Source: Anaerolineae bacterium
GTDB lineage: Bacteria; Chloroflexota; Anaerolineae; Anaerolineales; UBA4823
Direction of reading: 5' to 3'
Length of the DNA stretch: 64,000 nt
NCBI GenBank assembly: GCA_003130835.1
Contig: QEXX01000028.1
Coordinates: forward strand, 1 to 64,000
In this document: positions 3,100-16,612 of the stretch, piece by piece
Layout: each line of letters begins with the position of its first letter
Numbering within the stretch: the stretch's first letter is position 1
Translations under genes and position numbers: made by a program
Notes under the pieces: model-generated
Told to the model about the DNA's origin: nothing
The model's database searches: none
The model's input: the letters and a program-made list of their open reading frames with translations, nothing else

Positions 3100-4431
3100 A
3101 TGACAGCTCAACGAGGCACGCGAGTGCGCTCTTTAGTGGCTTTAGGGTTTGGGTTCTTTATTGACAGCGCAGAAGATTTAGCATTGCCCATGCTCTTTCC
3201 AGCGATTCGCAATTCGCTAGGGTTACTGTATAGTCACCTCGGGCTGATTGACAACATTCGCATTATCTTTCAAACGTTTTCGGGGCCGTTTTGGGGGATG
3301 CTTGCGGATAAGTACAATCGCAAATGGATTTTGGTCATCGGGACAGGGGTGTGGGGAATCTGGACAGCCTTATGTGGTTTGGTGGATAGTTTCTGGCAAT
3401 TAATGGTCTTGCGCATTGTTGCCTGTATTGGCTTGGGATGTCTCTATCCCGCCGCCTTTAGCATCTTAGGAGACATCTTCGGGCCGCGCGATCGAGGCAA
3501 AGCCATGGGGGCAATTAGCGCCATAGGAATGTTCGGAATCGTGGTTGGCGCGCTGGTGTTTGGCGAATTGACCGCTATCCCGGAGATCGGTTGGCGCATC
3601 GGTTTGGTGGGCTTGGGTGCAATGAGTGTTCTCTCCGGTGTGGTGATAGCCATATTGATCAAAAACCCCGTACGCGGCGCGGCGGAGCCAGAACTCAGCG
3701 ATGTCATCACCGAAGAAGCCGAGGTTCAGTTTGCTTTCTCGCTCAAGAAAGTCCGCGAGGTATTGCGCAGTGGCACCTTATGGCTGAATTTCATTCAAGG
3801 GGCGTTTATCATGACCTGCATCAACGCGCTCTCGATTTTCTTCGTCACTTGGTTAGTGGACGACCGGGGATATTCGGAGAGTGAAGCACCCATCTTCTTC
3901 GCTGGGATTGTCATCTCTCTTGCCGTTGGCAGTTTTGTCGCCGGGGTAGTTGCCGATTGGGCAGATGTGCGCTCCCCAAAATATGGACGCATTCTATGCT
4001 CACAAGGCTCGATTGCCATTACGCTCCCCGCCCTTTGGTATCTGTTTACCCGAGCACAAACAGAAATGCAAATCTTAGTTCCGTCTATCTTGGCTGGCTT
4101 CTTCCTCGATTGGACGCGCCGCGGCGTTCAGCAACCCCTCGCCCATGCCGTGACCAAACCCGAGCTTCGCTCAACAGCCATGGCTTTGATGGAGTTTACC
4201 CAAGGCGCCTTTGCCTCGGTGGTGATCATCCTCTTTGGGAATTTCGCCAACCAATATGGCTTGACGACGACGCTGCTGGTGCTGTCCGTAGGCTTTTGGA
4301 GCATTGCGCTGGTGCTCACCACCCTTTACTACTTTATTTACCCGCGGGAAGCGGCAAACTTTCGTCAAGAAATGAAGAATCGCCGCGAGGTTCTGATCGG
4401 TCAAAGTCAAATTGCTAATTTCCCCGAATAA
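3100..4431 (+). CDS. MFS transporter
   Basis: 443 aa, many TM helices, GMLADKYNRKW-type motif. Confidence 0.85.
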   Translation: MTAQRGTRVRSLVALGFGFFIDSAEDLALPMLFPAIRNSLGLLYSHLGLIDNIRIIFQTFSGPFWGMLADKYNRKWILVIGTGVWGIWTALCGLVDSFWQLMVLRIVACIGLGCLYPAAFSILGDIFGPRDRGKAMGAISAIGMFGIVVGALVFGELTAIPEIGWRIGLVGLGAMSVLSGVVIAILIKNPVRGAAEPELSDVITEEAEVQFAFSLKKVREVLRSGTLWLNFIQGAFIMTCINALSIFFVTWLVDDRGYSESEAPIFFAGIVISLAVGSFVAGVVADWADVRSPKYGRILCSQGSIAITLPALWYLFTRAQTEMQILVPSILAGFFLDWTRRGVQQPLAHAVTKPELRSTAMALMEFTQGAFASVVIILFGNFANQYGLTTTLLVLSVGFWSIALVLTTLYYFIYPREAANFRQEMKNRREVLIGQSQIANFPE

Positions 4432-4446
4432 GAAAGGCAGGATGGA

Positions 4447-4848
4447 ATGATCGAAATCCACGAATGGAACGGAGAAGGCTATCAACCCCTGGTTTTTACC
4501 CCCCAATGGATGGCCGCCATTCTCAATTGGCAGCCACTTTACGATTTGGCGAACGCCGATGAAATCGAAGTTCACCAACAAACCGATGAAGTCTTCGTCC
4601 TGTGGCGGGGACGGGGAGCGTTGTACTATCTCACCGAAGAGGGACAGCTCGAAGTGCAGGACTTAAAACCCGGCGTCATCTATAATGTGCCGGCTGGTGT
4701 CTGGCATGGTTGTTTAGGCAGTCGTGATGTGTCTTGGATCATTGTCGAAAACCGCGACACTCACCTGAACGACACCACCGTGCGCAAAATGAGCGACACA
4801 GAGCGAGAGACCCTGCGCCAAAAGGCGCCGGGTTGGTGCAAAGCCTAA
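4447..4848 (+). CDS. Small cupin-like protein
   Basis: DEIEVHQQTDEVFVLWRGRGALYYLTEEG...VIYNVPAGVWHG is cupin-like. Confidence 0.7.
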   Translation: MIEIHEWNGEGYQPLVFTPQWMAAILNWQPLYDLANADEIEVHQQTDEVFVLWRGRGALYYLTEEGQLEVQDLKPGVIYNVPAGVWHGCLGSRDVSWIIVENRDTHLNDTTVRKMSDTERETLRQKAPGWCKA

Positions 4849-6592: not shown

Positions 6593-7792
6593 TCAGCGTA
6601 CGCGCACGTTCCAAGCGCTGGCAAAGCCCAGCAAGCTAGCCGGGATCAGCATAAGCCCGGCCAGAAACCAATCGAAACGGACGACAAGCTCGCCGAAAAC
6701 CAATGGTCCGGTCAATTGCCCAAAATATTGCCCAAATAACACCACTGCCAGTCCCAACCCTGCCCATTGCGGCTTGCGCATGACTTCCGGCGCGGCGGCA
6801 AAAGTGGCGGTTGGGAGAGCACCGATCAGCAGGCCTTGGATGCTCATTAGCAGGACGATGCCCATCCCCTGCACACGGAAGGGGAACAGGAGAAGGATAG
6901 CAATCGCCAGAAAGGGCAAAGCAATCAATAAACGGCGTGAGTTGAGGCGATCAGAAAGCCAACCGGCTGCCGGGGCTGAAAACAAAACGACCAACGTGGC
7001 AATGCTCGACAAGAAAGACGCCTGCGGCAGGGGATAACCGCGTACCTCGTGCAAGAAGGTGGGATAGTACGTGCCAATGGACACCATCACGAAATTAAAA
7101 CAGGCAAAAGCTGCCCCTAAGAGCCAAATCTCACGGTTCGCCAGCGCTTTGCGGAAGGAAAGGGAAGACTGAGCAGCCCCCTTTTGAGGTTCGGATTGGG
7201 GAGGCTGACGCACCAGCCAAGCATAGAGCAGAGCAGCCAATAGGGTGAAGGCAGCGCCACCCCACCAGACACTTTGCCATCCGTAGGCAAGGCTAAAGCG
7301 CGGCGCTAAGTTATACATGAGAATACTCCCGACCGGCACCCAGGTCGCCCAAATGCCCATGGCGGCACCTTGACGCTGTGGCGGGAACCATTGCGCGATG
7401 GTCGCCGGAGCAATCACGCCCATCAAGCCAATCCCAATGCCTTCGATGACTCGACTCAAAGCTAAGACCCCAAAAGTAGGCGAGAGCGCGCCCAGCACAG
7501 CTCCCCCCGCCAGGCACCCCAAGGCGATTAAGCCGCTTGTGCGCGAGCCTAGTTTTTGCACGATCAAACCAGCCGGCAAAGCCAGCAGCAATCCTGTCAG
7601 GGCGACGGTGGACATCAAGGATCCGCCTTGAGAAAGGTTGATCCCAAACCGTTCCATTATCATTGGCAGGATCGGCGGTACCTTGAATTGATTGAAGGGT
7701 GCTGCCACACTGGCGAGATAGACTGCCAGCAGGACGAACCAAGCGTAACGGTCAGCAGTAAGCGCAAAGGGGTAGGAGGAAGCTTTTTGCAT
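6593..7792 (-). CDS. MFS transporter
   Basis: 399 aa, about 12 TM helices. Confidence 0.85.
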   Translation of the reverse strand: MQKASSYPFALTADRYAWFVLLAVYLASVAAPFNQFKVPPILPMIMERFGINLSQGGSLMSTVALTGLLLALPAGLIVQKLGSRTSGLIALGCLAGGAVLGALSPTFGVLALSRVIEGIGIGLMGVIAPATIAQWFPPQRQGAAMGIWATWVPVGSILMYNLAPRFSLAYGWQSVWWGGAAFTLLAALLYAWLVRQPPQSEPQKGAAQSSLSFRKALANREIWLLGAAFACFNFVMVSIGTYYPTFLHEVRGYPLPQASFLSSIATLVVLFSAPAAGWLSDRLNSRRLLIALPFLAIAILLLFPFRVQGMGIVLLMSIQGLLIGALPTATFAAAPEVMRKPQWAGLGLAVVLFGQYFGQLTGPLVFGELVVRFDWFLAGLMLIPASLLGFASAWNVRVR

Positions 7793-8290: not shown

Positions 8291-9646
8291 TTATTTGTAA
8301 ACGCCGTATTCCTTGCCGGTTTGGATCAAAGCGTGCAGGTTTTCGGCTTGGGCATCGTCCAGCACAGCTCCATTGGCAAGAATATAGCCACCATCTTGAC
8401 CGACTTCATCAATCAAACGTTTGACATACTCCTCGACATCCTTAGGCGTGCCGGCTTTTAGCAGGGATGAGGGCACATTGCCGCCAAAACAAGCCCAACC
8501 TTGAAAGCGTTTCTTGACCTCTTTCATATCCGTCTGATCGAACATCCAGATCGACTTTCCGGCTGGGATGTCTGGATCGGGGAAGATGTCCAAGCGCTGA
8601 TTATAGCCACCTTCGACGAAGAGATAAGGGACAAGTCCCTCTTCTATCAAACCGATAATCAGGGCTTTTAGGGTTGGCCAGTAGAAGGTCTTGAAGTCCT
8701 TATTGGACATAAAGCCATCAGCGCCTTTATGCAAGGGGATAAAGACGATTAAGTGTTTGTTCCCTGTAGCGGAACGCACGCCCATTTCGATTTGCATCGG
8801 CGTAATGCGCTCAAGCGCTTCGAGCAGTTTCTTGGGTTGGCGGTACATATCCAGCATGATAGCGCGCGTGCCGCGCAGGGTATCACCCAAGACGTCAAAC
8901 GGCGCCTTAGCAAAGCCTCCGATCAAGCCGGGAATGCCTAGAGTGCCCAAAGTCTCCATATCGATTGCCACAGCTTTTTGAATCCATTCCATTGCCATCT
9001 GCCCGGCTTGCAGCAACTTCTTCAAGGTTTCCTGCACGGGCGGAATACCCCACGGCACCAAAAAGCCGCCCATAAACGGCAATTCCAGCACATCGGTAAA
9101 GGGAGGCAACATCTCCCAAGCGCCGAGAGCACCCATGATGCGCGGGAAGTACTTGCGCATAAAGAACGCCGAGGGATCGCGCAGGAACTCATCGTACTCG
9201 TCAGCATGCATGTACTCAGCTTCAATACACTGATAGGGGGTAGTTTCCGGCACACCATGCCCCGGCCAACGATAGAGTTTGTAGTCCATCAGCTCAAAAA
9301 TTGCACCTGGCCCATATATGGGTGCCGCAGACAGCGAATCCGGCACAAAATCGGCATGATATTTCTTGAGGGCATAGCCGAGTTTATCGTAATCGTACAT
9401 TGCTTCCTTTGCGGTGATTCCAGCATAGGCAAAGGGATAGAAACCCACAATTGGGCAGACCGGAATGCGCTTGGGTTTTCTCAATTCAATAACATCCTTG
9501 AGCATCTGGGCGCGTTCTTGAAAAGCCTGTCTGGCTTGCGGGGTGGCAAACGGTACCCCCTCAGCATCCATCCAAGCTTTGAAGCGGGCTTCATACTTCT
9601 CCTGCGGAGAAAGTTTATTCCATTGAACTTCCTGGCTCATATACAC
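8291..9646 (-). CDS. URO-D superfamily (MtaA/MtbA-like) methyltransferase, atypical metal site
   Basis: RPK RIPVCPIVGFYPFAYAG..., FIPLHKGADGFMS, CFGGNVPSSLLKAGTP; next to corrinoid protein genes. Confidence 0.8.
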   Translation of the reverse strand: MYMSQEVQWNKLSPQEKYEARFKAWMDAEGVPFATPQARQAFQERAQMLKDVIELRKPKRIPVCPIVGFYPFAYAGITAKEAMYDYDKLGYALKKYHADFVPDSLSAAPIYGPGAIFELMDYKLYRWPGHGVPETTPYQCIEAEYMHADEYDEFLRDPSAFFMRKYFPRIMGALGAWEMLPPFTDVLELPFMGGFLVPWGIPPVQETLKKLLQAGQMAMEWIQKAVAIDMETLGTLGIPGLIGGFAKAPFDVLGDTLRGTRAIMLDMYRQPKKLLEALERITPMQIEMGVRSATGNKHLIVFIPLHKGADGFMSNKDFKTFYWPTLKALIIGLIEEGLVPYLFVEGGYNQRLDIFPDPDIPAGKSIWMFDQTDMKEVKKRFQGWACFGGNVPSSLLKAGTPKDVEEYVKRLIDEVGQDGGYILANGAVLDDAQAENLHALIQTGKEYGVYK

Positions 9647-9654
9647 TCCTTTCG

Positions 9655-10947
9655 TTAGGCAGAATAAACGCCAAATTCACGGGTGGCATCAGTCCAAACT
9701 TGAATCAAATTCTCATCGCAGCCTTCGAGTTCCATGACATTATTCGCCATGACGAACCCGCCACCTTTTCCAACTTCTTCGCATAAGCGATGGGTTAGCT
9801 CGCGCACTTCAGAGGGACTGCGACCGGGTTTGAGATAGGTCAGCGGCATTCCACCGATGATGCACATCGTTTGTCCGACGACTTCTTTTACCTTGAAGAT
9901 ATTGCTGTCTTGAAAAGATCCAATACTTTTGCCCTTGGGGAGCTCTGCTAGATACTTCAATCGCTGATCCCAGACCCCTTCGTAATATACCCATGGGGTG
10001 ATGCCAGCCTCGATCAATTGCAGCATCATATCCTTGAGTTGCGGCCAATAGAAACGCTCGAACTGCTCTAGAGACATGAAACCATCTGAGCCGCGGTGCA
10101 AGGGGATGAACACAAACGGAATGCCGGTTGCTTTGGAGGTGCTGATGGCGTATTTCAATTGAAAGCGTTTGACCTTTTCTTCGGCAGCCAACAATTTCTC
10201 CGGGATGCGCATCATGTCGAGGAAAATACCCCTCATGCCTCGCAAAGTGTCGGACATGAAATCAAAAGGAGCCTCGACAAGGATGGAAAGCATCGTAAAA
10301 GGTGGAAACCCCAAAGCCGCTAATCGCTTTGCCGACTCCAATGCTTGGTTTAGCCATTCGGATTGATATTGAGCTGCTTTATACAGAGCTTCAAAAGCAG
10401 ACACCACAGGCGGGAGAGTCAGCAATTGATAATTGAGCAGGATGTTGTAATAACCGAAAGCCCACATTCCCAGGGGTGGGAGAAGGGCTAACCCCTGACA
10501 ATTTTGGAAAGCACGCGGGGTATAAACCCGAATTGCCCAGTCGGCCGGGTCTTCGAGGAATTCATCATAATCTTCTGCTTTCATGAATTCCTGCTCGTTG
10601 AATTGGAACGATCCATTCGGAGCTAAGCCGTAGCCTGGCCATTTGGTCATGCGATCCCCAACAGCTATCGAAGGCTTGGGGGTGTGCCAGTGGCCAAAAA
10701 TCAAATCGGGCTTATAGCGCAAGGCAGCCTTTTCCAAAAGTTCTTGGGCTTTTTGGGGGTTTTCGTAGAGTTCTTGCTTGGTAATCCCTCCCATCTCGGC
10801 TAATTTATACCCCATACCCATCATCAGCGGGATACGGTCGGGTTGTTTCAGTTGAATGGCATCTGAGACGCGTTGCTGACGTTCGATAAGCAGTTGTTCG
10901 GGCGTTTTGCCGACATCCACTTCGAACTGGGATTTGGTAGTATCCAT
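9655..10947 (-). CDS. URO-D superfamily methyltransferase, paralogue of preceding gene
   Basis: RIPLMMGMGYKLAEMGGIT..., FIPLHRGSDGFMS, GGMPLTYLKPGRSP; start taken at MDTTKSQ. Confidence 0.8.
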   Translation of the reverse strand: MDTTKSQFEVDVGKTPEQLLIERQQRVSDAIQLKQPDRIPLMMGMGYKLAEMGGITKQELYENPQKAQELLEKAALRYKPDLIFGHWHTPKPSIAVGDRMTKWPGYGLAPNGSFQFNEQEFMKAEDYDEFLEDPADWAIRVYTPRAFQNCQGLALLPPLGMWAFGYYNILLNYQLLTLPPVVSAFEALYKAAQYQSEWLNQALESAKRLAALGFPPFTMLSILVEAPFDFMSDTLRGMRGIFLDMMRIPEKLLAAEEKVKRFQLKYAISTSKATGIPFVFIPLHRGSDGFMSLEQFERFYWPQLKDMMLQLIEAGITPWVYYEGVWDQRLKYLAELPKGKSIGSFQDSNIFKVKEVVGQTMCIIGGMPLTYLKPGRSPSEVRELTHRLCEEVGKGGGFVMANNVMELEGCDENLIQVWTDATREFGVYSA

Positions 10948-10949
10948 CT

Positions 10950-11579
10950 CTAGTTGACTCCGTACCACGCGTTTGCCATCTTGACGGCTGCCATAGCATC
11001 GCGCCCCCAGCCGTCTGCGCCGGTAAACTGGCGGATTTGCTCATCAATCTGTCCGCCGCCGATCATGACCTTGACATCGTTCAGCCCGGCCGCTTTGAGT
11101 GCTTCGACGGTCGCTTTCATCGGGTCATAAGCCAGGGTGAGGAAGCCACTGAGAGCAACCACTTTGGCACCCGTTTCTTTGGTGGCTTCGACAAACTTTG
11201 CCGGGGGCACATCCACGCCAAGGTCGGTGACCTCAAAACCGTTGACATCCAGCATAAAGGCAACGATATCCTTGGCGATGTCGTGAATGTCGCCCTCCAC
11301 AGTGCCGATGACCACTTTGCCGTGTTTCTTCTGCGTAGCTTCCTTCTGCAGGCGAGGCTTGATTAAGTCGGAGACCTGGCGGAGCATTTCGCCGGCCAGA
11401 ATCAACTCGGGGATAAAACAATCCCCGGCTTCAAAGCGTTTCCCGATCACCTCCATGGCTTGGCGGCAGGCTTCTAAGACCTCCAGGGGGTCTTTGCCAG
11501 CATCCAGCATCTGCTGGGTGATCTTGAGCGCGTCTTCCTCGCGCATCTCGGTAATAGCTTGAATTAGTTCTTGGGACAT
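10950..11579 (-). CDS. Corrinoid (B12-binding) methyltransferase protein
   Basis: Helical N-cap plus GTVEGDIHDIAKDIVAFMLDVNGFEVTDLGVDVP. Confidence 0.92.
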   Translation of the reverse strand: MSQELIQAITEMREEDALKITQQMLDAGKDPLEVLEACRQAMEVIGKRFEAGDCFIPELILAGEMLRQVSDLIKPRLQKEATQKKHGKVVIGTVEGDIHDIAKDIVAFMLDVNGFEVTDLGVDVPPAKFVEATKETGAKVVALSGFLTLAYDPMKATVEALKAAGLNDVKVMIGGGQIDEQIRQFTGADGWGRDAMAAVKMANAWYGVN

Positions 11580-11634
11580 GTTTTCTCCTTTCTATTTCAA
11601 TCGGTAGCGGTTTGGTGGTGGTCTGGTGGTTGAC

Positions 11635-12444
11635 TTAAGAGCCGCTGGGCGGCTCGAAAATCCCTTTGCGGTGAGCGCGAATGAAGTTCAGGCAATGTTT
11701 GTCTTTGCCTAACAGCAGTTCGGCGGTGACGATCATGGCTTGAATCTCGCGGTCTAGAGGATCGAGGATGGCGCTATCCAAACCGGCTGCCATTGCCATG
11801 ACCAGAAAGACGCGGTTGATATAGGAGCGAGCCGGCAGGCCAAAGGAAATATTGCTCAAACCGATGGTCAGGTGAGCTTCAGGATATTCTTGGCGGACGC
11901 GGCGCATGGTCTCGAGGGCGATCAGGGCGCTGTCGGTGTTGGTCGAGATGGTCATCGCCAATGGGTCGATGTAAACCCGCTCATCGGGGATACCATAGCG
12001 ACGGGTTTCAGCCATGATTTGGTGGATGACCTCCAGACGTTTTTCACTGCTTTCGGGAATTTTCTTGGCATCCATCGCCAAGGCAATCACATCGCAACCA
12101 TGCTCGGCAACGATTGGCAAAATGCCCTCCAGTCGCTCTGGCTCGCCACTGATCGAGTTGATCAGCGGTATCTTTTGCACAGCGCCGATGGCAGCCCGCA
12201 GTGCCTTGGGGTTGGCACTATCCAAGGAAAGCGGCGTATCGGTCACTGATTGAACGACTTCGATCAGCCATAAAAGATCCTCTGCTTCTTGGCTGGGATG
12301 GGTGCCGGCGTTGACATCCAGCCAGGTTGCGCCGGCTTCGGCTTGCCGCTTGGCAAGATCGGCGATATAGTCTCGGTCGCGCTCGGCAATCGCCTGGGCA
12401 ACGCGCTTGCGGGTTCCGTTGATCTTTTCTGCGATGATTTTCAT
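11635..12444 (-). CDS. Pterin-binding methyltransferase, MtrH/AcsE-like (DHPS fold)
   Basis: MKIIAEKINGTRK...GATWLDVNAGT...PLSLDSANP...LTIGLSNISFGLPAR. Confidence 0.88.
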   Translation of the reverse strand: MKIIAEKINGTRKRVAQAIAERDRDYIADLAKRQAEAGATWLDVNAGTHPSQEAEDLLWLIEVVQSVTDTPLSLDSANPKALRAAIGAVQKIPLINSISGEPERLEGILPIVAEHGCDVIALAMDAKKIPESSEKRLEVIHQIMAETRRYGIPDERVYIDPLAMTISTNTDSALIALETMRRVRQEYPEAHLTIGLSNISFGLPARSYINRVFLVMAMAAGLDSAILDPLDREIQAMIVTAELLLGKDKHCLNFIRAHRKGIFEPPSGS

Positions 12445-12459
12445 CTTTCACTCCAAAAG

Positions 12460-14301
12460 TCAGTTTTTCTCGCTGTGGACTGGGAAGTGCATGGCATGGG
12501 CAAAATAGAGGTTGAATTTGGGCACGGTGCTCAATTCGAGATAGTGCGTGCGGCGGGCGATTTCCTCTGCCCGGCGACGCGCTGATTGCGAAAGGAGCAT
12601 CCACTGCGCGCCGATGGCGGCGGCATTGCCCACCTGTCGGTAACGGGCATGCGGTAGTGGAGGGAACAAACCGATTTGCACCGCACTGGGGAGGCTGATG
12701 TACGAGCCAAACGCCCCTGCCACGATCACCTCTTCCACTGCTTCGGGGGCAATCTGATTGGTTTCCAATAAGATTTTCATGCCGGCATGGATGGCGCCTT
12801 TCGCCAATTGGATTTCGTTGATGTCCTTTTGAGTGAGGGCAATTTCGCGCCCGTTTCCACTCTTATCAGCCGGGACAAAAACAAAGCGCGGTTCGCTATT
12901 TCCCAGCAAGGCAAGCCTCTGGCGGTTAAAGCGCCCGTTGGGTAAGAGATAGCCAGCCCGGTAGAGTTCTGCAATGGCATCTAAAATGCCCGAGCCGCAA
13001 AAGCCAATCGGCGGTTCATGGTCCACCGTCTCGATTTGGACTCCTTGCGGGGTCAGACGCACCTTTTCGATAGCTCCAGATGCGGCGCGCATGCCGTCAC
13101 GGATGTGCGCCCCTTCGAAGGCCGGACCGGAAGCACAGGATACGGCCGTCAGTGTCTCTTTGCCGGGGATGCGCAAGCTGATTTCGGTGTTGGTGCCAAT
13201 ATCAATGCCGATCGCCAGGCGCTCGTTGCGATCGAGTTCGCTCGCCAGCACCATGGCTATATGATCCGAGCCGATATAACCACCGATCGCTGGCGGGATG
13301 TAAACCCGCGCCCCCGGCGCCATACGCAATCCCAGCTCCGAAGCAAGCACTTCCAAAGGTTCACTGCTGGCGGCAACGTAGGGCGAGAGGGCAAGTTGGC
13401 GCACCGGCCAGCCCAGCAGCAGATGAGTCATTGCCGTGTTACCTACGATACAGGCTTCAGCGACTTGCTCGGGTGCTGCGCTCACCTTATTGAGCATTTT
13501 GAGCAATAACTCGTCGATCGTTTGACGGACGAGTTCGGCAAGCTTCTGGCTGCCAGCCGCGTTGCGTTGGGCGTAGGCCAAACGGCTGACGACATCTTCC
13601 CCATAAGAGATTTGGGGGTTGGGAGCACCACTGGTGCTTAGAACTTGTCCGCTTTCTAGTTCCAATAGGGTGGCGGCGATTTTCGTGCTACCCAGATCAA
13701 CAGCTAAGCCGAGGAGTTTCTGGTGTGCAGGGGTAAGGCCGATTACCTCGTTATGGCGCCATAAAATATTCGCACTCCAGCCAAGCTGGCGGATTGCCGT
13801 GGGAAGCTGTTGGAGAAAGGCGTTTGAAGTGGTAATCTCTGTTGAGCCGCTTTGTGCGGTAATGGCTTCTTTGAGGCGCGTCCAATCGGAACGCGGATCG
13901 TGCAGCGTGGGCGGTGGGCAACTCACAGGGATCGCCTGCACCACAGGCTCCGGCGGAATGGGGCGTAGAACGCTCTCGATTTGCAACCGCTGGCCGCTGT
14001 CCAATGAATCAGGCGGAACATGCAAGCGGACATCGCTCCATGCGCGCGTGCAGCAGGCAAGGCGATACCCAGCCTCGATTTCTGCCTCGCCGAGTAAGAA
14101 CCGTTCGTCTTCGGTGAGCGGGGAAACGGAACCGCTGACGACTTGTACCCGACACTGACCGCAGTTGCCCTCCCCGCCGCAGGTGGAGGTCAGGGCAATG
14201 CCAGCCAGCCGAGCGGCTTCGAGTAGATTGGTTTGTGCCGCGACTTGAACGCGCTTTCCAATTGGCTGGAATTGGATGGTTACTTCGGGTTGCTCTTTCA
14301 T
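12460..14301 (-). CDS. RACo-like reductive activator of corrinoid proteins (2Fe-2S plus ASKHA domain)
   Basis: CGGEGNCGQC ferredoxin motif; AVDLGSTKIAATL and GIDIGTNTEISL ASKHA motifs. Confidence 0.9.
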   Translation of the reverse strand: MKEQPEVTIQFQPIGKRVQVAAQTNLLEAARLAGIALTSTCGGEGNCGQCRVQVVSGSVSPLTEDERFLLGEAEIEAGYRLACCTRAWSDVRLHVPPDSLDSGQRLQIESVLRPIPPEPVVQAIPVSCPPPTLHDPRSDWTRLKEAITAQSGSTEITTSNAFLQQLPTAIRQLGWSANILWRHNEVIGLTPAHQKLLGLAVDLGSTKIAATLLELESGQVLSTSGAPNPQISYGEDVVSRLAYAQRNAAGSQKLAELVRQTIDELLLKMLNKVSAAPEQVAEACIVGNTAMTHLLLGWPVRQLALSPYVAASSEPLEVLASELGLRMAPGARVYIPPAIGGYIGSDHIAMVLASELDRNERLAIGIDIGTNTEISLRIPGKETLTAVSCASGPAFEGAHIRDGMRAASGAIEKVRLTPQGVQIETVDHEPPIGFCGSGILDAIAELYRAGYLLPNGRFNRQRLALLGNSEPRFVFVPADKSGNGREIALTQKDINEIQLAKGAIHAGMKILLETNQIAPEAVEEVIVAGAFGSYISLPSAVQIGLFPPLPHARYRQVGNAAAIGAQWMLLSQSARRRAEEIARRTHYLELSTVPKFNLYFAHAMHFPVHSEKN

Positions 14302-15023
14302 TCCTTCTCCGTCGCCGAGGCCGACGCTGCGGGGATGGAATTGGCTTCGATTTTGGGTTGCACCAGCTTGAAATCAAGATAGGAGACCGTTTGACCCGCT
14401 TCGACGACCAGGAAATCATCATCCCATTCGCCCTTAAGCATTTTGACGATCAAAGCGTTCGACCCGCGCACTTCTTCGAAGCGTAAGTTGAATTTCTCGG
14501 CGGTGCGTCGGGCGATCTCAACATAGCCGGCATTGTCCTGGTGCCCAGTGTCGATGTACACCAATCGTTTGTAGTTCTTGAGCATCACGCTCATAATGCG
14601 ATTGGCGCGCTCGACACCATATTGGGCAACTAAGCGTTCGTACTCGTCGAAAGGGGTATCGGCGACCTCAATCCAACCTTTGGTGAGGTAATAGGTGCCG
14701 GCTTCCTGGCGCACTTGTTCGGAGTAGGCAGCCTGAGAGCCGAGAAAGATGCCGATACAATCGTCGGTGCGGGGGATCACCAGCCGACAGCCATTGGCTT
14801 TGAGGCCGATCACCGCCATCGAACACAAGCCATAGCCGAGTAGCAGGGTATCATAGCGAGGAGAGGAGGCATTCACAGCGGCTTGCAGTTTCTCGCGCAG
14901 GTTGGGCGGAGAGAGATGTAAACCGAAATCCAAGACTTCGTAAGCCATGCCCTTGGGGAGAAGAGGAAGCATCTCCTCGATTACGGTGGCACAAGCAATG
15001 ATTTTGGTTCGATTGATATCCAT
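14298..15023 (-). CDS. DUF1638-like protein
   Basis: TKIIACATVIEEM..., YGLCSMAVIGL, RTDDCIGIFLGS, YKRLVYIDTGH. Confidence 0.75.
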   Translation of the reverse strand: MDINRTKIIACATVIEEMLPLLPKGMAYEVLDFGLHLSPPNLREKLQAAVNASSPRYDTLLLGYGLCSMAVIGLKANGCRLVIPRTDDCIGIFLGSQAAYSEQVRQEAGTYYLTKGWIEVADTPFDEYERLVAQYGVERANRIMSVMLKNYKRLVYIDTGHQDNAGYVEIARRTAEKFNLRFEEVRGSNALIVKMLKGEWDDDFLVVEAGQTVSYLDFKLVQPKIEANSIPAASASATEKE

Positions 15024-15067
15024 AGCGCGAGTTTAGTGGTATAGTTATATAGGGAAGTTGTAAGATG

Positions 15068-15096
15068 AGTATACACTTCCCTAGGGAAGTTGTCAA
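15068..15096 (-). promoter_or_regulatory. Predicted minus-strand promoter TTGACA-17-TATACT with a 16-bp palindrome in the spacer
   Basis: + strand agtata(15068)...tgtcaa(15091); palindrome acttccctagggaagt at 15075-15090. Confidence 0.8.
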
Positions 15097-15101
15097 GAGA
15101 G

Positions 15102-15130
15102 TTGCCGAAATGAGAAAATGCAGGCATAAT
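15102..15130 (+). promoter_or_regulatory. Predicted promoter TTGCCG-17-CATAAT for the divergent GntR gene
   Basis: -35 at 15102, -10 at 15125. Confidence 0.5.
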
Positions 15131-15145
15131 TAAGCGCAAAAGATC

Positions 15146-15940
15146 ATGGTCAAAGAACCCCAACCCCTCTTCAACGATCAACTCGAAATTGACCGCGATT
15201 CGTACGAACCGGCCTATATTCAACTCGCCAACATCCTGCGGCGCCAAATTGCTGAAGGAGTCTTTCGACCGGGCGATCAACTCCCCTCTGAGTCGCAATT
15301 GTGCCACCGCTACGGCATCAGTCCGATGACCGTACGCCGCACGATCAACCTGCTCGCTGATGAGGGGTTGATCAGCACCGCCCAGGGGCGCGGCACCTTT
15401 GTCAAAGGCATTGAGTTGAGTGAAGCAACCTTTGGTTTACGGGAGTTAAAAGACCTCTTTAAACCCGATCAACAGGCACACGTTAAACTCTTAGACGCCC
15501 GGGTGGTTTCGGCGGATGAACGGACAGCTCGAAAACTCGAAATTGCCTGTGGCGCGCCAGTCATCTACATTCGCCGTCTCTTCAGCCGCGCCGAGCAGCC
15601 GGTCTTCTATCACCGCGCCTACTTGATTTATGACCCAACCCGCCCGATTGTCGAAGCCGAATTGGATGTCACTTCGCTACAAGGGCTGTTTGCCGGCGGC
15701 AACCATTCGTTGCTAAAGTTTGGCACGCTCAATATCGAAAGCACCTTGCTCACCAACGAGGAAGCCGAACTGCTCAAACGCCCTTACCCTTGTGCTGCCT
15801 TCTATTTGGAGCATCTCTTCTACGACTATGACGATCATCCCCTCAGCTGGGGGTGGTTTATTATCCCTGCCGACTGTCTGCACTTCACTGCCCAAGTGGG
15901 GGTGAGCCCCCGCCAAGCCATTCACTCCGGAGGAAAATGA
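15146..15940 (+). CDS. GntR-family regulator with UTRA domain (HutC type)
   Basis: YIQLANILRRQIAEGVFRPGDQLPSESQLCHRYGISPMTVRRTINLLADEGLI wHTH. Confidence 0.92.
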   Translation: MVKEPQPLFNDQLEIDRDSYEPAYIQLANILRRQIAEGVFRPGDQLPSESQLCHRYGISPMTVRRTINLLADEGLISTAQGRGTFVKGIELSEATFGLRELKDLFKPDQQAHVKLLDARVVSADERTARKLEIACGAPVIYIRRLFSRAEQPVFYHRAYLIYDPTRPIVEAELDVTSLQGLFAGGNHSLLKFGTLNIESTLLTNEEAELLKRPYPCAAFYLEHLFYDYDDHPLSWGWFIIPADCLHFTAQVGVSPRQAIHSGGK

Positions 15941-15943
15941 TCG

Positions 15944-16612
15944 ATGACCCGAATCATGACCATCCCTGAACTCCGTACGGCGCTTATCCAGAATATCGCT
16001 GACCTCAACGAAGCTGCCTCGCTGAGCTTGGTGCAAGCGTTGATCGAAAACCAGACCGAGCCGCTTGAGATCGTGCAAGACTGTCAAGAGGGGATGCGTC
16101 AGGTCGGGGAACGCTATGAGCGCGGCGAATACTTCCTCTCCGCCTTGATCATGGCGGGTGAAATCTTCCGCGAGGTCATGGAGATGGTCACTCCGTTAAT
16201 CAAAGAGCGCTTTCGCGGCAACGAATCGGGAGTCATCCTGCTGGGCACGGTAGAAGGGGATATCCATGATATTGGGAAAAACAATTTGAGCCTGCTGCTG
16301 ACCAGCTACGGTTTTACGGTGCATGATCTCGGTGTGGACGTCCCACCAAGCGAATTTCTGCGCCAAGCCCAAGCGCTTCATCCAGACATTATTGGCTTAT
16401 CCGGGCTGCTCACCAGTTCTTACGATAGCATGAAGCGCACAGTTCAGCTTCTGCGCAACGCCGAAGATGCTAGGGTGGTCAAAACGCCGGTCATCATCGG
16501 CGGCAATCAGTTAAACGAACAGGTTTGCCAGTATGCCGGCGCGGATGCGTGGGTCAACGATGCCATGAGCGGCGTGCGCTGGTGTCAAAGGTTGCTTGGG
16601 CACAGAAGCTAG
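15944..16612 (+). CDS. Second corrinoid (B12-binding) methyltransferase protein
   Basis: GTVEGDIHDIGKNNLSLLLTSYGFTVHDLGVDVP. Confidence 0.92.
   Translation: MTRIMTIPELRTALIQNIADLNEAASLSLVQALIENQTEPLEIVQDCQEGMRQVGERYERGEYFLSALIMAGEIFREVMEMVTPLIKERFRGNESGVILLGTVEGDIHDIGKNNLSLLLTSYGFTVHDLGVDVPPSEFLRQAQALHPDIIGLSGLLTSSYDSMKRTVQLLRNAEDARVVKTPVIIGGNQLNEQVCQYAGADAWVNDAMSGVRWCQRLLGHRS

Follow-up and report, generated by a model that had tools for sequence, protein, structure and literature searches.

Which kind of methyl-transfer system is encoded by a cluster of corrinoid genes in an uncultured member of the Anaerolineae, which methyl donor does it serve, and why does a second corrinoid protein travel with a GntR regulator? 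We addressed these questions in a 64,000-nucleotide stretch of contig QEXX01000028.1, hereafter the window, by comparing its genes with those of other genomes and of characterised systems.

Gene content and extent of the locus

The minus strand encodes two UroD-superfamily substrate:corrinoid methyltransferases (MT1s), MTI1 (8291..9646) and MTI2 (9655..10968; both PF01208), the methyl-carrier corrinoid protein CP1 (10950..11579; PF02310/PF02607, motif DIHDIA), the methylcorrinoid:tetrahydrofolate methyltransferase MTII (12444 to 11635; PF00809, PRK07535), a RACo-type ATP-dependent reductive activase of corrinoid proteins (12460..14301; Fer2, RACo linker, middle and C-terminal Pfam domains) and a DUF1638 protein (14298..15023; PF07796). 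On the plus strand are a local regulator of the GntR/UTRA (HutC) type (15146..15940; PF00392 and PF07702) and a second corrinoid protein, CP2 (15944..16612; PF02310/PF02607), with an intact DIHDIG motif. All genes listed in a first-pass annotation of this DNA were recovered at the same positions with scores above the Pfam cut-offs, in line with its view of a complete corrinoid methyl-transfer system whose donor was unproven. Its boundary was drawn too narrowly since it left out a gene for an MFS transporter (6593..7792, minus strand; PF07690) that other genomes also have next to these genes, and the locus thus reaches to 6593.

The same gene set was found repeatedly in many independent genomes in a neighbourhood comparison, which excludes chance as its cause. 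A gene order like that of the window is kept in loci from Anaerolineae and elsewhere (L026, L027, L034, L063, L083 and L103), and in most of the loci L206-L216 the GntR, CP2, DUF1638, RACo, MTII and MFS set is much alike while the MT1s belong to other clades. Using an HMM built from the window MFS protein, we found transporters adjoining the same genes in L018, L025, L026, L028, L050, L051, L068 and L070, and further in L074, L078, L083, the Moorella locus L163 and L206-L208. The MFS protein, only 24% identical to that of the Moorella operon, is probably an importer of the methylated substrate or an exporter of its product. With a stand-alone, two-domain corrinoid protein, an MT2 and a reductive activase in the cluster, the locus is a UroD-superfamily three-component corrinoid methyltransferase system, of the same kind as the Mtv, Odm and Mto O-demethylases and the chloromethane dehalogenase Cdm.

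The methyltransferases and the methyl donor

MTI1 and MTI2 match URO-D alone in Pfam, with no match to the MttB superfamily of the quaternary-amine (MttB/MtgB) systems, and their only strong PDB relative is CdmB (9rui; 2.7e-31 for MTI1 and 2.5e-27 for MTI2). We placed them in an MT1 tree that covered the Moorella MtvB branch and CdmB, with MtoB, OdmB and VdmB outside its sample. MTI1 fell into a clade of 24 sampled rows (support 100/99) and MTI2 into a separate one (support 100/100), where its sister, L063_4364, comes from an operon with the same gene order. Both strongly supported clades are located outside the MtvB and CdmB branches, and neither contained a characterised member among the sequences sampled for the tree. 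The first-pass annotation had named, as evidence against its own proposal, a position of the genes within a characterised demethylase clade that has the same gene set. Half of this holds: the set is that of a characterised O-demethylase locus, but the MT1s lie outside the characterised branches sampled. The subfamily is large, with at least 549 confirmed relatives, including members from Chloroflexota, Acidobacteriota, Bacillota and Asgard archaea, and a plasmid search for MTI1 yielded a single distant match, from Sporomusa (23%).

The pterin enzyme, previously described as MtrH/AcsE-like, proved to be of the AcsE/MeTr type, scoring above the PRK07535 (NCBIfam) cut-off (333.7 bits vs 259), and not of the MtrH type (PF02007). 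It retains the methyl-THF binding residues D75, N96 and D160 and the SN motif when aligned to MeTr 2e7f, and the H-x-C-G-N zinc motif of the thiol (CoM)-type enzymes MtaA/MtbA was found in 0 of 118 MT1s, the aligned residues not being His or Cys. An alternative acceptor had been suggested, but neither observation points to a thiol in that role. The host genome has Wood-Ljungdahl genes (ACS, FTHFS and MTHFR), and its CODH/ACS genes have their own AcsE-like enzyme and activase nearby. The best PDB matches of CP1 and MTII were to components of a Desulfitobacterium hafniense O-demethylase, namely 4jgi (Dhaf_0720; CobDH of a putative O-demethylase) and the MT2 in 4o0q, a comparison that concerns single components. 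A query with the D. hafniense PDB corrinoid protein led to loci L201-L216 and not to a near-identical protein in any sampled genome.

An operon attributed to Moorella thermoacetica has the order MTII-MTI390-CP-MFS-MTI447-DUF1638-GntR-CP2. Its 447-aa MTI is 53% identical to MTI1, its CP2 47% to the window CP2 and its GntR protein 39% to the window GntR. We took the genome to be that of strain DSM 521 and read the operon, from its gene order, as the mtv vanillate locus; the order fits the published vanillate-system tags (c12950 mtvC2, c12980 and c13000 mtvC3). Like the window, it encodes an MT2, a corrinoid protein, a UroD MT1, an MFS protein, the MTI1 orthologue, DUF1638, GntR and CP2. However, the partner MT1 is the 390-aa MtvB, in place of which the window has MTI2, the Moorella stretch showed no RACo gene, and the GntR-CP2 pair of the window is divergent.

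Two tandem UroD MT1s with a corrinoid protein, MT2, activase and MFS gene are also found in Methermicoccus shengliensis, where the published Mto operon comprises MtoC, MtoB1, MtoB2, MtoA, MtoD and MFS and is induced on methoxylated aromatics (PMC8630106). The Mto systems of this species and Archaeoglobus fulgidus share with the window a UroD MT1, a corrinoid protein, a 2Fe-2S activase, an MFS protein and a regulator, but MtoA is MtrH-like with H4MPT as the proposed acceptor, and neither DUF1638 nor a GntR-CP2 pair is mentioned in the available portions of the two descriptions (PMC8630106, PMC8359953). The layout is therefore not undescribed, as had been claimed, given the Methermicoccus operon and the company of MTI1, GntR and CP2 orthologues with MtvB in Moorella. 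In its overall form it has precedents in acetogens and archaea, and the unexplained part is the regulator with its own B12 protein, together with DUF1638.

We consider it fairly probable that the locus is an inducible O-demethylation operon of the Mtv/Mto type, since the families and the best structural relatives (CdmB, the D. hafniense O-demethylase corrinoid protein and MT2, and RACo) fit, since the Moorella vanillate-type operon has the same set, and since the published Mto operon, similar in content, responds to methoxylated aromatics. The methyl donor itself we infer, because both MT1s are located outside the MtvB and CdmB branches; it is reasonably likely to be a methoxylated aromatic, that is, an aryl methyl ether. 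No aromatic-degradation genes were recognised next to the operon, and close UroD relatives are able to use other substrates, as shown by CdmB (PMC13222342). In the proposed mechanism, the MFS protein would bring in a small organic acid bearing a methyl group, with a methoxylated aromatic as the likeliest candidate. MTI1 and MTI2, presumably with different substrate ranges, would transfer its methyl group to Co(I)-CP1 and leave the phenol. MTII would then pass the methyl group from CH3-Co(III)-CP1 to tetrahydrofolate and into the host Wood-Ljungdahl pathway, while CP1 oxidised to Co(II) would be re-reduced with ATP by RACo, with DUF1638 helping. The analysis ties a large uncharacterised MT1 subfamily to Mtv/Mto-like systems and the Wood-Ljungdahl pathway, and thereby makes uncultured Anaerolineae candidate users of lignin-derived methoxy groups.

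A different soluble donor, such as an aliphatic methoxy acid, a methyl glycoside or another O- or S-methyl compound, with MFS uptake, UTRA sensing and an otherwise identical mechanism, seems rather doubtful, although the sampled MT1 clades without characterised members would suit it. Sugars and small acids are common ligands of UTRA regulators, and in one locus (L094) the operator described below is carried by a solute-binding protein gene; yet among loci sharing MTI1, GntR and CP2, a proven substrate can be linked to the Moorella vanillate-type operon alone. Dehalogenation of chloromethane or another haloalkane is very improbable despite the relationship of both MT1s to CdmB. The Cdm system of Acetobacterium dehalogenans does resemble the window in its UroD-fold MT1, corrinoid protein and MT2 (PMC13222342), but CdmB falls outside the MTI1+MTI2 group, albeit on a long branch, an MFS importer would be needless for a volatile gas, and cdmBCA is reported as a cluster of three genes, for MT1, CP and MT2.

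DUF1638 and corrinoid reactivation

The activase matches PDB 3zyy at 3.7e-111, and its gene overlaps that of DUF1638 by 4 nt, a coupling that recurs in L026, L027, L034, L036, L063, L068 and L083. The same coupling, of DUF1638 with a corrinoid protein and an activase like RACo or RamA, defines the reactivation pair of Price 2018. The earlier suggestion of a functional tie to the activase is supported, but the link of DUF1638 to corrinoid reactivation had been published in 2018 (PMC5764234). DUF1638, with conserved residues C11, H36, C67 and D87-D88-C89, is probably a partner in this process, and what it does there is a question that can be tested.

In Phaeobacter inhibens and Ruegeria pomeroyi, DUF1638 and a RamA-like activase likewise act with corrinoid proteins, but in methionine synthesis and betaine demethylation and with no UroD MT1 (PMC5764234, PMC12478193). 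A biosynthetic methyl cycle, whether a split methionine synthase or another one, similar to the Phaeobacter set of MtgC, RamA-like protein and DUF1638, would account for the shared DUF1638, activase, corrinoid and pterin domain proteins. It is nevertheless scarcely credible here, as the operon has no PF02574 homocysteine methyltransferase, the genome contains a separate 1218-aa frame with MetH-like corrinoid and pterin domains, and a local regulator and transporter suit a catabolic system.

The AF2 model of DUF1638 is confident (pLDDT 90.7) and gave no significant match to PDB folds (best E 0.017, TM about 0.2), leaving a fold shared with the MetH reactivation domain unsupported. Loci without DUF1638 often contain a stand-alone MetH-reactivation-domain protein. 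The two occurred in 18 and 14 of 80 named loci, respectively, and never together (hypergeometric p 0.019), a suggestive lead only, as independent contrasts on the tree were too few for significance and truncated contigs score as absences.

The regulator and the second corrinoid protein

A consensus promoter lies upstream of DUF1638, and GntR-type sites (ACTTCCCTATATAAST) overlap it. The promoter of the DUF1638-MTI operon consists of a -35 element, TTGACA (15091..15096, minus strand), and a -10 element, TATACT (15068..15073, minus strand), separated by a 17-bp spacer. One predicted operator, the perfect palindrome ACTTCCCTAGGGAAGT (15075..15090, no strand assigned), is located between these elements and another, ACTTCCCTATATAACT, at 15043..15058 on the minus strand. 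Only two operator matches were found in the host genome, both at this locus, and 10 of 11 matches with at most one mismatch in 1.2 Mb fall 14-128 bp before DUF1638. The divergent GntR/UTRA protein would bind such ACTTCCCTA-type sites and repress the operon.

The first-pass annotation had taken the two enzymes and two corrinoid proteins to suggest two related substrates or an alternative acceptor. Two parallel systems for two related substrates, each with its own MT1 and either CP1 or CP2, would agree with the paired MT1s and corrinoid proteins of the window and with the mere 35% identity of MTI1 to MTI2. We find this improbable since the presence of CP2 follows the GntR gene rather than the number of MT1s. 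Both corrinoid proteins are kept in 12 loci that have one MT1 each, L026, with the same gene order as the window, has both together with a single MT1, and CP2 belongs to a GntR-linked group that requires 4 label changes on the tree, compared to 21 in shuffles.

CP2 would be part of the transcription unit of the regulator and dedicated to the GntR gene. No GntR-CP gene fusions were found among the loci examined. A literature search on GntR and corrinoid proteins returned no such pair among the titles and abstracts listed. The arrangement represents a regulatory novelty that can be tested. It is conceivable, if tentative, that CP2 signals to the GntR/UTRA repressor which state the cobalamin or methyl-corrinoid is in, with DUF1638 acting as a counterpart of the MetH reactivation domain that docks CP1 to RACo. 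If so, CP2 would have no part in catabolic methyl carriage, and GntR and CP2 would form a split functional analogue of CarH.

Gene content and methyl acceptor

All eight genes named in the first-pass annotation were recovered in the window, each above curated cut-offs. Read from right to left, the minus-strand run starts with the DUF1638 protein (14298-15023), which is overlapped by 4 nt by the RACo-type activase gene (12460-14301), and continues with the AcsE-type pterin methyltransferase MTII (11635-12444), the corrinoid protein CP1 (10950-11579) and the URO-D methyltransferases (MT1s) MTI2 (9655-10968) and MTI1 (8291-9646). The GntR/UTRA regulator (15146-15940) and, downstream of it, the corrinoid protein CP2 (15944-16612) are located divergently on the plus strand. 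MTI1 is followed on the minus strand by an MFS transporter (6593-7792) that was absent from the annotation, and which very probably is part of the locus since an HMM built from it matched transporters beside the same gene set in a dozen or more further loci. On the plus strand, about 1.7 kb past the operon end, a different MFS transporter and, after it, a cupin-like protein are encoded (3100-4848).

Methyl transfer to tetrahydrofolate (THF) through CP1 is a firm part of our interpretation. The closest PDB relative of CP1 is 4jgi, a corrinoid protein from a putative O-demethylase of Desulfitobacterium; that of MTII is 4o0q. MTII retains D75, N96 and D160 and also the SN motif, the known folate-binding residues of methyl-THF transferases. 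The MtaA-type zinc motif of thiol-methylating enzymes, H-x-C-G-N, is present in 0 of 118 related MT1s, so the sequences do not indicate a CoM-like acceptor.

The host genome encodes acetyl-CoA synthase, FTHFS and MTHFR. A separate AcsE-like enzyme and an activase are located near its CODH/ACS genes, and MTII is therefore not the housekeeping copy. On host contig C111, close to the CODH/ACS genes, another corrinoid protein is encoded together with a RACo gene of its own (848 bits against the locus RACo profile) and without an MT1 (L021:9093-11685).

Relationship to known O-demethylase systems

The single strong PDB relative of both MTI1 and MTI2 is CdmB, the MT1 for chloromethane in Acetobacterium (PMC13222342). 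A tree of 43 MT1s resolved three separate clades, the MTI1 type (100/99), the MTI2 type (100/100) and the 390-aa MtvB type (100/100), with CdmB outside the MTI1 and MTI2 group, and two other trees gave the same picture. Being separate from the MtvB type and CdmB, MTI1 and MTI2 appear to fall outside the proven branches sampled, a placement that is not final as MtoB, OdmB and VdmB were left out. The MTI1 type is widespread, with at least 549 confirmed relatives of the query, and rare in the phylum of the window (5 of 400 sampled genomes).

The system had been proposed as a candidate undescribed one; its layout has precedents in the Mto and Moorella operons. The Methermicoccus Mto operon, induced by methoxylated aromatics, contains MtoC, the tandem UroD MT1s MtoB1 and MtoB2, MtoA, the activase MtoD, MFS transporters and a regulator (PMC8630106); it shares with the window two tandem UroD MT1s, a corrinoid protein, an activase, MFS and a regulator. 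A cluster of the same kind is described for A. fulgidus (PMC8359953). In one operon of a Moorella genome, assumed to be that of M. thermoacetica DSM 521, the order is MTII, a 390-aa MT1, a corrinoid protein, MFS, a 447-aa MT1, DUF1638, GntR and CP2, in agreement with the published vanillate-system tags c12950 (mtvC2), c12980 (named mtaB2) and c13000 (mtvC3) (PMC13391211). Identities to the window are 53% for MTI1, 47% for CP2 and 39% for GntR, whereas the MFS transporters are just 24% identical.

By gene order, the 447-aa UroD MT1 (L163:6529-7872) appears to be the gene listed as mtaB2 in PMC13391211; this methanol MT1 name is probably a misnaming, and the mtvB2 tag printed as c12020 would probably be c1301x or c1302x. 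In Desulfovirgula thermocuniculi the gene between DUF1638 and an MTI1-type gene (L170:7723-8778) encodes a methyltransferase of the MtrH family (PF02007). In other loci an AcsE-type enzyme occupies this position, and the locus resembles the archaeal Mto system in this respect.

Much of the GntR, CP2, DUF1638, RACo, MTII and MFS set recurs in Bacillota loci (L206-L216) together with MT1s of very different clades (the 384-aa and 453-aa types), and the set therefore looks like a general O-demethylase-type chassis. The window locus belongs to the Mtv/Mto kind of system, and its Chloroflexota host encodes Wood-Ljungdahl genes; the methyl donor would most likely be a methoxylated aromatic.

DUF1638 and corrinoid reactivation

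DUF1638 and a RamA-like activase were previously linked to B12 reactivation (Price et al. 2018, PMC5764234; restated in 2025, PMC12478193). New in the present analysis are the conserved residues (C11, H36, C67 and DDC), a confident DUF1638 model for which no PDB fold match was found, and 14 related loci in which DUF1638 is absent and a stand-alone protein shares its fold with the MetH reactivation domain (1j6r, TM 0.72/0.85). This protein of about 236 aa (L096:2119-2829 and 13 other loci) adjoins corrinoid protein, MT1 or RACo genes and scores below the Pfam PF02965 cut-off. None of the related loci contained both proteins, a pattern suggestive of mutual exclusion and not independent of phylogeny.

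CP2 and the regulator

The layout with two enzymes and two corrinoid proteins had been read as suggesting two related substrates or an alternative acceptor. However, both corrinoid proteins are present in 12 loci with just one MT1, and a corrinoid protein gene follows every complete GntR of this type on the same strand in the loci from the genome scan, a count from which a GntR cut short at the L101 edge and a weak match of 98 aa in L097 are excluded. The two genes also adjoin, mostly in reversed order, in Bacillota loci whose MT1s belong to other clades, and the GntR-linked corrinoid proteins group on the tree (4 label changes versus 21 in shuffles). On these grounds, CP2 accompanies the regulator rather than a second substrate; that it senses the corrinoid state is a tentative and rather doubtful suggestion. 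The D-x-H-x-x-G motif is kept in 23 of 23 GntR-linked corrinoid proteins, whereas 14 of 66 MT1-linked ones show a change as in CP1, which has DIHDIA.

The GntR-DUF1638 intergenic region contains the palindrome ACTTCCCTAGGGAAGT (15075-15090) between TTGACA and TATACT, which are spaced by 17 bp, and a second site of this type at 15043-15058. With up to one mismatch, these two places are the only occurrences of the extended motif in the 3.45-Mb host genome. The core motif has 11 matches in 1.2 Mb of related loci, 10 of which are 14-128 bp upstream of DUF1638, while the eleventh precedes the gene of a neighbouring solute-binding protein. This distribution is good evidence that a dedicated local regulator controls the operon. 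The gene neighbourhood and the overlap of the sites with the promoter suggest that the GntR protein acts at these putative operators and that it may repress the operon.
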